Assembly (NCBI GenBank): GCA_021555105.2
Contig: CP134604.1
Span: 2,108,001-2,172,000 of the forward strand
DNA length: 64,000 nucleotides
Origin: Thalassospiraceae bacterium LMO-JJ14
GTDB taxonomy: Bacteria > Pseudomonadota > Alphaproteobacteria > Rhodospirillales > Casp-alpha2
Direction: 5' to 3'
Part shown: positions 39,803 through 49,479 of the stretch, piece by piece
How the letters are laid out: the number at the start of each line of letters is the position of its first letter
Numbering within the stretch: position 1 is the stretch's first letter
Made by a program: the position numbers and the translations under genes
The notes under the pieces: generated by a model
Told to the model about the DNA's origin: nothing
The model's database searches: none
Seen by the model: the letters and a program-made list of their open reading frames with translations, nothing else

Positions 39803-39918
39803 GCCCCCTCTCCCGGCGCTTCGCGCCACCCTCTCCCGAGGGAGAGGGGCGCCAGTAATTCCCTCTCCCTGGGGAGAGGGAGGGGCCCGCGTGCATCAGC
39901 ACGTGGGAAGGAGAGGGG
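39803..39918. repeat. Intergenic CCCTCTCCC repeat, copy 1
   Basis: The gap between SDR and acyl-CoA dehydrogenase genes holds CCCCTCTCCCGGCGCTTCGC and CCACCCTCTCCC, the reverse GGGAGAGGGG, then CCCTCTCCC-TGGGGAGAGGG. Near-identical units recur at 41076-41178 and, inverted, at 49396-49479. It contains no gene. Confidence 0.8.
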
Positions 39919-41075: not shown

Positions 41076-41178
41076 TGCCCCCTCTCCCGGCTCACTACGT
41101 TCGCCACCCTCTCCCAAGGGAGAGGGGTGATGAGACGAGAGTTCCCTCTCCCTTGGGAGAGGGGCAGGGAGAGGGGCT
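41076..41178. repeat. Intergenic CCCTCTCCC repeat, copy 2
   Basis: It carries the same arrangement as at 39803: CCCCCTCTCCCGG, CGCCACCCTCTCCC, GGGAGAGGGG, then CCCTCTCCC-TTGGGAGAGGGG. The middle has CTCACTACGTT in place of CGCTTCGCG. It directly follows the acyl-CoA dehydrogenase stop. Confidence 0.8.
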
Positions 41179-41196
41179 TAAATTTATAAGGAGCGC

Positions 41197-41228
41197 AAAT
41201 GCCAAATCCCGTTGAGTTCTATTTCGAT
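41197..41228 (+). repeat. 32-bp direct repeat, left copy
   Basis: The 32 bases are identical to 41757-41788 and encode the first residues of the downstream isomerase gene (MPNPVEFYFD). AAGGAG lies seven bases before the ATG of this copy, so it looks like the original gene start. The reading frame stops a few codons later. It marks the left border of the inserted GxxExxY segment. Confidence 0.9.
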
Positions 41229-41756
41229 GCCTGATGATCTCAACGCGATGGACTTGGCATGGTAAAGGAAACGCAAAGGCCGCAAAGAGACGCAATGGAC
41301 GCGAAGAAAAATGAAAGAGAAAATTTGGAAGGCATTGCGTCATCGGTTGTCGATGCGGCATTGAAAGTCCACTCCGCGTTGGGCCCCGGGTTATTAGAAG
41401 ATGTGTATGAGAAATGCTTGGCAATGGAATTGCAGAAACGGGGATATAAAGTCGAGAGGCAGGTAGCAGTGCCGGTAGAATATGAGGGCGCTTTCTTTGA
41501 AACAGGATACCGGCTGGATTTGTTGATTGATGAGTCGTTTGTGGTCGAGGTAAAGGCCGTAGAAAAGATGATGCCCGTGTATCTTGCGCAGATTCTGACC
41601 TATCTGCGTCTGGGAAAGATGAAGCTTGGTTTGTTATTGAATTTTAATGTCCCGAAAATGCGGGATGGAATCAGAAGGGTCGTGAATGACCTGTAGCTTT
41701 GCGCGCTTGGCGCTTTCCTTCGCGTTCTTCGCGTTTCCTAATATTGACTGAGGTAA
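41229..41756 (+). mobile_element. Inserted GxxExxY segment between 32-bp direct repeats
   Basis: The segment separates two copies of the isomerase gene start. Inside it GGAAACGCAAAGGCCGCAAAG (from 41267) and the 3' end GCGTTCTTCGCGTTTCC (to 41738) form imperfect inverted ends around one gene. No transposase is encoded. The structure indicates insertion or duplication at the start of the isomerase gene, with gene function kept by the right-hand copy; the mechanism is unknown. Confidence 0.65.
41259..41696 (+). CDS. GxxExxY protein
   Basis: The 145-residue protein has the family motif in GPGLLEDVYEKCLAMEL. The later part resembles a PD-(D/E)xK nuclease core: YRLDLLIDESFVVEVKAVEKM shows Asp, Glu-x-Lys in the right order. 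The family is widespread and of unproven function. An internal ATG at 41295 is an alternative start; the first 12 residues come from the terminal repeat of the element. Base composition is lower in GC than its neighbours, in line with recent acquisition. Confidence 0.85.
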   Translation: MVKETQRPQRDAMDAKKNERENLEGIASSVVDAALKVHSALGPGLLEDVYEKCLAMELQKRGYKVERQVAVPVEYEGAFFETGYRLDLLIDESFVVEVKAVEKMMPVYLAQILTYLRLGKMKLGLLLNFNVPKMRDGIRRVVNDL

Positions 41757-41788
41757 AAATGCCAAATCCCGTTGAGTTCTATTTCGAT
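41757..41788 (+). repeat. 32-bp direct repeat, right copy
   Basis: The 32 bases are identical to 41197-41228. This copy forms the actual 5' end of the intact isomerase gene, with GAGGTAAA as ribosome binding site supplied by the inserted segment. Confidence 0.9.
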
Positions 41789-42361
41789 TTTTCGTCGCCG
41801 TATGCGTATTTCGCGGCGCAGCAGATCGACAAGCTGGTCGAAGGCTTTGGGCGCGAATGCGTGTGGCGCCCCTACATGATGGGCGTGGCGATGAAGAATA
41901 CCGGCGCCGAGCCGTTGGTGAACTATCCGGTCAAAGGTGAGTACTGCAAGAACGACTGGGCGCGACTGGCGCGGTTTCAGGAACTGAATTGGTCCATGCC
42001 GGAAAAGTTCCCGTTCGCCGCCATCGCGCCATCGCGCGCATTTTACTGGATGAACGACAAGGACCCGGCCAAGGCGAAGGCATTCGCCTGGGATTGCCTG
42101 GAGACGTATTTCGGCAGAGGTGAGGATATTTCCTCGAAAGACGCCGTTGCCGCCATTGCGGCAAAGCAGGGTTTCACCGAAGATGAAGTACTAAAGGCAC
42201 TCGACGACGAAAGCGTCAAAGAACGATTGAAGGACGAAACCCAGGCAGCCATCGACAAGGGCGTCTTCGGATCGCCGTTCTTTATCGTCGACGGTGAAGG
42301 TTTCTGGGGCGCGGACCGTTTGTGGATGGTCAAACGCTGGCTCAGGGCCGGTGGTTGGTAA
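41759..42361 (+). CDS. 2-hydroxychromene-2-carboxylate isomerase family protein (DsbA-like)
   Basis: The 200-residue thioredoxin-fold protein has FYFDFSSPYAYFAAQQID at the N-terminus, where kappa-class glutathione transferases and HCCA isomerases bind glutathione through Ser. GVFGSPFFIVDGEGFWGADRLWMV lies near the C-terminus. HCCA isomerase acts in naphthalene breakdown, but many members occur in fatty-acid and CoA contexts, as here. Its start is duplicated upstream at 41199. Confidence 0.88.
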   Translation: MPNPVEFYFDFSSPYAYFAAQQIDKLVEGFGRECVWRPYMMGVAMKNTGAEPLVNYPVKGEYCKNDWARLARFQELNWSMPEKFPFAAIAPSRAFYWMNDKDPAKAKAFAWDCLETYFGRGEDISSKDAVAAIAAKQGFTEDEVLKALDDESVKERLKDETQAAIDKGVFGSPFFIVDGEGFWGADRLWMVKRWLRAGGW

Positions 42362-49395: not shown

Positions 49396-49479
49396 CCCTC
49401 CCTCTCCCAGGGGAGAGGGGGATTTGCATTCCTGCCCTCTCCTTGGGGAGAGGGTGGCGCGCAGCGCCGGGAGAGGGGA
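49396..49479. repeat. Intergenic CCCTCTCCC repeat, copy 3 (inverted)
   Basis: The segment reads as the reverse complement of the copies at 39803 and 41076: CTCTCCTTGGGGAGAGGGTG followed by GCGCGCAGCGCCGGGAGAGG. It ends at the xth stop codon, so it may also serve as the 3' end of that transcript. Confidence 0.78.

Follow-up and report, generated by a model that had tools for sequence, protein, structure and literature searches.

A GxxExxY gene between iterated inverted ends, inserted with a 32-bp duplication at the start of an isomerase gene, resembles a minimal mobile element

How can a gene be inserted at the first codons of another gene and leave that gene unbroken, and what could have moved it there? 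The question is raised by positions 41197-41788 of a stretch of 64,000 nt, hereafter the window, in which a GxxExxY unit (the window element) adjoins the start of an isomerase gene. The GxxExxY family is widespread and has no assigned function. In the open-access literature that was searched, the family or its accessions occur in three papers, none of which, by title or passage, deals with mobility, and no description of GxxExxY units was found. According to the analysis presented here, the framed GxxExxY unit appears to be a minimal mobile element of a kind not yet described.

Anatomy and age of the insertion

The two copies of the direct repeat (41197-41228 and 41757-41788, both on the + strand) were identical at 32 of 32 positions, with a start-to-start distance of 560 nt. 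The direct alignment of one flank to the other scored 32, compared with 18 as the best value among 189 neighbouring control boxes of the same size. The left copy starts 2 nt upstream of the ATG that opens a truncated isomerase frame, which ends after 11 codons (MPNPVEFYFDA and stop). It is preceded by the RBS-like motif AAGGAG (41188-41193, +), located at the position of the native site in three relatives with an empty site. The right copy is the start of the intact target gene (41759-42361, +), encoding a DsbA-fold (PF01323) isomerase-like protein of 200 aa, which we take to be 2-hydroxychromene-2-carboxylate isomerase. The RBS-like motif of the right copy, GAGG (41750-41753), is situated in a 17-nt spacer (41740-41756, +) between the right inverted end and the right repeat, i.e., within the insert.

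The left repeat is followed by a filler of 37 nt (41229-41265, +) and by the left inverted end (41266-41308, +) with the units CGCAAAG (41272-41278), CGCAAAG (41281-41287), CGCAATG (41291-41297) and CGCGAAG (41300-41306). The right inverted end (41697-41739, - strand) contains the units CGCGAAG (41733-41727), CGCGAAG (41724-41718), CGCCAAG (41712-41706) and CGCAAAG (41703-41697). The two ends were 75-82% complementary in several registers. The GxxExxY gene (41259-41696, +; TIGR04256, PF13366 PDDEXK_3) has an alternative start at 41295. The conserved domain of its product begins at residue 27, and the extension on its N-terminal side (41259-41336, TQRPQRDAMDAKK) is the translated left end array. 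The GC content of the inserted DNA was 47.7%, that of the window 58.3%. A sequence-only reading of the locus had described a single GxxExxY gene with imperfect inverted ends between 32-bp repeats, the original RBS kept with the left copy, a second RBS supplied by the insert and a preserved host gene; all of this agrees with the coordinates above.

Some further features were observed around the left border. Positions 41236-41260 of the filler match the first bases of the repeat imperfectly and in inverted orientation. The hairpin of left repeat and filler (41197-41262), in whose stem the start codon of the truncated frame is base-paired, had a predicted energy of -22.6 kcal/mol that none of 200 shuffles matched, whereas 23 of 200 shuffles equalled the hairpin when longer flanks (41185-41270) were included. 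Palindromes of the form CCCTCTCCC...GGGAGAGGG, resembling the ends of DUF559 units, were located at 39829-39880, 41107-41163 and 49400-49419 of the window. The one adjoining the insert was present also in congeners without the insert and is therefore older than the insertion; near the insertion site, the Rfam search gave only sub-threshold matches, to this upstream palindrome. The genome of the window carries one DUF559 gene elsewhere (L286, G000:C1:1567370-1567684), which is a possible source of these palindromes.

Seven other genomes of the genus were compared, six of which have the isomerase gene; the search for that gene gave no match in the seventh (G047, 58% complete). In all six, the 32 bases were present as a single copy without insert, as the sequence-only reading had predicted for relatives with an empty site, with 2, 2, 2, 4, 7 and 7 mismatches. 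In three congeners with closely alignable flanks (G043, G044 and G046), the window flanks joined at the repeat were collinear in the order acyl-CoA dehydrogenase gene, palindrome, RBS and ATG, and deletion of the insert together with one repeat copy restored the collinearity. The left copy is thus in the ancestral place, and the event was an insertion with a 32-bp duplication. The isomerase gene differed by 17% from that of the nearest congener, while the two repeat copies are still identical. Since the left copy is under no known constraint, this comparison suggests that the insertion at the isomerase start is probably recent. The protein of the window element was closest, at 61-63% identity, to elements of other families and phyla and not to those of its own genus; the protein tree had too few columns for resolving most forks.

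Iterated ends and the encoded protein

The ends were compared across 193 distinct GxxExxY loci gathered by order-level, phylum-level and cross-phylum searches. Each flank was scanned separately for runs of 7-bp C[AG]CNRAD units in inverted orientation, and neighbouring boxes inside the same loci served as controls. At least two units on both flanks were detected in 128 of 193 loci and in none of the 193 control boxes; with at least three units the corresponding numbers were 82 and 0. When the unchanged rule was applied to 24 loci fetched later, 13 were positive, compared with 0/24 controls. Free alignment of the ends reached a score of at least 14 in 139/190 loci versus 3/190 controls. The recurrence of inverted ends around other GxxExxY genes, expected from the window alone, is therefore far above chance. 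The 65 of 193 loci in which the two-unit rule did not hold for both sides together count against a mobile-unit explanation.

The orientation of the units relative to the gene was near-constant (122 vs 6). Three units were the commonest arm size (159 of 278 arms), and the unit-to-unit spacing was 8-10 bp in 402 of 468 cases. The unit variants differed among elements (CACAGAG, CACGAAG, CGCAAAG, CACGGAT and others). Both arms of an element, detected independently, had the same commonest variant in 97 of 128 loci, where 11.5 were expected and the maximum in 5000 shuffles was 22. An earlier arm-match test (109/133) was discarded as circular because the arms had been found by similarity. Controls of mismatched pairs were also abandoned in favour of neighbour boxes, since unit families are common to different elements.

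The variant followed the protein. Two elements shared a variant with a probability of 0.01 when their proteins were 30-40% identical and of 0.88 when the identity exceeded 80%. Among pairs without common flanking genes, it was 0.08 (45-55% identity), 0.22 (60-65%), 0.45 (70-80%, 33 pairs) and 0.8 (>80%, 5 pairs); shared descent is part of this relation and is not fully separated from it. The borders were determined with 28 filtered pairs, drawn from 26 loci, of elements at unrelated sites. On the left, the DNA similarity came to within 12 nt of the outer array edge in 15 pairs, fell short of the edge by more than 12 nt in 13 and passed it by more than 12 nt in none; on the right, the corresponding numbers were 18, 9 and 1. 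Such similarity, stopping at the array edges between unrelated sites, is as expected of a mobile unit bounded by the arrays. Taken together, the recurrent ends, the match of arm to arm, the variant tracking the protein and the edge-limited similarity suggest that the arms belong with the gene in a single mobile unit, the encoded nuclease being its likely mover. The proposal of a mobile unit with a discrete insert, made from the window alone, is supported by these data and by the empty sites.

Some loci deviated from this pattern. In L075, L077, L327, L330 and L341, the inverted match was not confined to the unit arrays and extended to the flanking DNA, as would result from insertion into the loop of a pre-existing palindrome or terminator. 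The divergent relatives L338, L339 and L340 (TIGR04256 about 48-58 bits) had no such ends and are possibly a non-mobile branch. Gene-less hairpins were present near 52 of 193 loci, compared with 7 found with the control pattern; in L118 (six, with a 189-bp period), L112, L087, L208 and L064, hairpins of the same units form tandem arrays.

The window protein scored 140.7 bits with TIGR04256 (cut-off 35) and 138.8 bits with PF13366 (cut-off 22), and it contains the G..E..Y and D...ExK residues, which places it in the GxxExxY family. The nuclease residues were conserved among the 193 proteins: D85 in 192, E95 in 187, K97 in 192 and Q109 in 188. By sequence, no solved structure was matched at E<=1. 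The predicted structure (pLDDT 96.1, pTM 0.88) had its best PDB match with SSO0001 (Z 9.3 over 100 residues), which we take to be Cas4-like. Hjc (Z 6.9) and the Cas4 protein Pcal_0546 (Z 6.7) were tied among many nucleases, and no Foldseek E-value was below 0.001. According to the model, the fold is that of PD-(D/E)XK DNA nucleases (Cas4/Hjc-like). None of the PADLOC families was matched by the window protein, and PHROGs gave one weak match (E 0.004).

TIGR04256 and PF13366 were the sole matches of the single ORF of the insert, in which no DDE, HUH, serine or tyrosine recombinase, integrase or Y1 (REP-type) transposase was detected. The description of the unit as transposase-free may nonetheless mislead, as the foremost candidate for moving the unit is the PD-(D/E)XK nuclease that it encodes. 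We infer that this protein moves the unit.

Possible origins of the insertion

With moderate confidence, the window element is explained by the recent insertion of a minimal mobile unit, composed of inverted iterated arrays around one PD-(D/E)XK GxxExxY nuclease gene. The encoded nuclease probably acts on the iterated units, which are about one helical turn apart, to judge from their spacing. It would bring both ends together and nick the target at widely separated points, and repair of the gaps would leave a long duplication, 32 bp in this case. Insertions may survive at operon junctions and gene starts because the duplicated start and the insert-supplied RBS keep the downstream gene intact. 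Most older insertions may be without a duplication because the unselected left copy decays later. A broader version is put forward only tentatively: a new kind of autonomous transposon, in which a Cas4/Hjc-fold nuclease would read about three 7-bp units per end and make staggered cuts, giving duplications of 30-80 bp from which a gene start could be rebuilt, with the DUF559 and S23/IVS units as sister classes.

Both neighbours of the GxxExxY gene, taken as the longest ORFs and not as curated genes, were called in 171 loci; they were co-directional in 115, convergent in 33 and divergent in 23. The nuclease gene was in sense in 101 of the 115 co-directional settings, and the median gaps to the neighbours in the sense class were 11 and 14 nt. 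This orientation bias speaks for the mobile unit, as do the low GC content of the window element and the fact that its closest relatives are found in other families and phyla. The framed gene was present in operons of many bacterial phyla, usually in one or few copies per genome. Several sites recurred among the 193 loci, with gene names assigned from sequence: the carB flank of carA-carB (30 loci; 23 sense, 7 antisense), trpD-trpC (21), a cobQ-type gene (6), pyrB-pyrC (5) and ribF-ileS (5). Many of the carAB and trpDC copies were probably inherited and are not independent insertions, which counts against the mobile-unit explanation. The carA-carB spacer, otherwise 0-7 nt in relatives, held other inserts of 1.0-1.4 kb in L160, L163, L173 and L174, and is regarded as an insertion hot spot that receives more than one type of insert.

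GxxExxY genes were found in none of 50,697 phage records and in 7 of 72,556 plasmid records, and viral contigs contained no relative. The absence from phages and the rarity in plasmids are odd for an active mobile element and count against the mobile-unit explanation. The same applies to the single copy of the element in its genome, where no gene-less copies were detected (5 pattern hits vs 4 with the control, two of them being the element's own arms).

The predicted nuclease fold, the low copy number and the recurrence of highly conserved junctions (carB, trpC, pyrC, ileS) would suit a free-standing homing endonuclease gene, which cuts the conserved gene start of empty alleles and is copied by homologous repair, the iterated ends being incidental, e.g., transcription or RNA-processing elements. 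The target of a homing nuclease is normally broken by the insert. However, both 32-bp copies are intact in the window, so that a nuclease whose target happened to lie within them would go on cutting. The ends are, moreover, common to elements at unrelated sites and stop at the array edges, and the unit variant tracks the protein. Homing is accordingly considered unlikely.

The duplications at other loci bear both on the insertion of a mobile unit and on its next alternative. Direct repeats outside the ends scored at least 20 in 7 of 189 loci compared with 0 of 189 controls. Four of them are at gene starts (the window, L048, L189 and L203), and three are internal gene-less repeats (L064, L053 and L123). 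Only the window (32 bp, 100%) and L048 are insertion-like. In L048, the duplicated 79 bp include the bases immediately before carB and the first part of the gene, and the left copy follows on carA in the way seen at empty sites. Further support for the mobile unit comes from two carB starts in genus g2: 31 bp are kept at the left in L153, which is outside the 189 scored loci and now has a DUF559 unit in the site together with a remnant GxxExxY right end, and 13 bp in L036. The L153 and L036 duplications may represent one event, and their independence from L048 is not assumed.

The expectation that long target duplications would be found around other GxxExxY genes did not hold as a general rule, as three of the seven are internal repeats and two a tandem duplication. 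With so few insertion-like cases, the long duplication is real, not general, and either decays or is one of several outcomes. Several elements had near-perfect ends without a duplication, e.g., L132 with 42-nt ends and no direct repeat; this and the rarity of long duplications count against the mobile-unit explanation. Two other kinds of candidate were rejected: the 34-bp duplicated terminator of L110, since the terminator is not duplicated in the sister locus L067, which has the same insertion, and the direct repeats beside the DUF559 genes L263 and L289, which are gene-less repeat copies.

Two tandem GxxExxY genes with the pyrC start duplicated between them were found in L189, and L189 and L203 are best read as a tandem duplication of the element, i.e., an alternative route to a duplicated start that counts against the mobile-unit explanation. 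An ordinary tandem duplication of this kind, or the single crossover of a circle carrying the element and the target start, with one element being lost afterwards, would require no transposition-like event, and the frequent tandem arrays of gene-less hairpins point in the same direction. In the window and L048, in contrast, there is one element each, the junction between the left copy and the upstream gene is that of empty sites, and no trace of a second element was seen; this route is thus rated as somewhat less probable than homing.

The least probable is an IVS-like RNA element, whose ends are a stem cut from mRNA by RNase III and which spreads through RNA and reverse transcription with duplications of variable length: it is favoured by the sense orientation in operons and by the inverted ends with tandem units of S23/four-helix loci and of the Coxiella 23S IVS (PMC4990558), but the arm mismatches had no excess of G-U (146) over A-C (161), hence no sign of RNA-stem selection, and no reverse transcriptase (PF00078) was detected in this 99% complete genome.

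Comparison with known systems

The insertion of a mobile unit, the preferred explanation, can be set beside several established systems. The window element has the terminal inverted repeats of an insertion sequence and no recombinase; the duplication is a clean 32 bp here and is absent or decayed in most of the 189 loci. The insertion sequences of the IS1549/IS1634 type make long, variable target duplications, and a long target duplication is not unique to the window element. These insertion sequences are similar in having inverted ends, one gene and a long direct repeat, whereas the window element is without a DDE transposase, its ends are iterated, and the duplication is mostly absent in its family. 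The REP/RAYT systems and MITEs likewise combine a gene with associated gene-less palindromes, as seen at the 52 GxxExxY loci above; unlike them, GxxExxY has no Y1 transposase and the genome of the window has no gene-less copies. In SXT, inserted in prfC, the direct repeat also rebuilds the 5' end of the target gene; in contrast to SXT-type integrative elements, the window element is about 0.5 kb in length and lacks an integrase.

The DUF559 (PF04480) single-gene units have one gene between inverted ends and occur also at carA-carB. Long inverted ends of nested G/C-rich palindromes were detected in 18 of 28 DUF559 loci versus 0 of 28 controls. DUF559, presumably also of the PD-(D/E)XK-type class, is another nuclease family with another end sequence (CCCTCCCCCC...GGGGGAGGG).

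The intervening sequences (IVS) of 23S rRNA are the closest known relatives by design. In the Coxiella IVS, an S23 ORF is combined with a terminal stem of 28 bp and three heptamers in tandem (PMC4990558). IVSs with the S23/four-helix ORF (TIGR02436) resemble the window element in their sub-kilobase size, one ORF, inverted ends with short tandem repeats, lack of a known transposase and patchy distribution (PMC4990558). S23/four-helix genes from whole genomes had inverted ends of 7-bp tandem units at 21 of 29 loci compared with 0 of 29 controls. In contrast, GxxExxY is a predicted nuclease of another fold at mRNA gene junctions, not in 23S rRNA, and its 7-bp units, spaced by 8-10 bp, have another sequence and no sign of RNA-stem selection. 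The window element thus follows the IVS plan, yet it is not a member of the IVS family, having a PDDEXK_3 ORF and a locus at the start of a protein-coding gene.

If GxxExxY belongs to a defined mobile unit whose ends are specific to the variant, the family gains a testable function, and a possible non-DDE, non-HUH mover is added. The same link would bring rRNA intervening sequences, DUF559 repeats and many intergenic palindromes that have had no explanation under one view. The window case also indicates how a gene start can take in a mobile unit while the gene stays unbroken.
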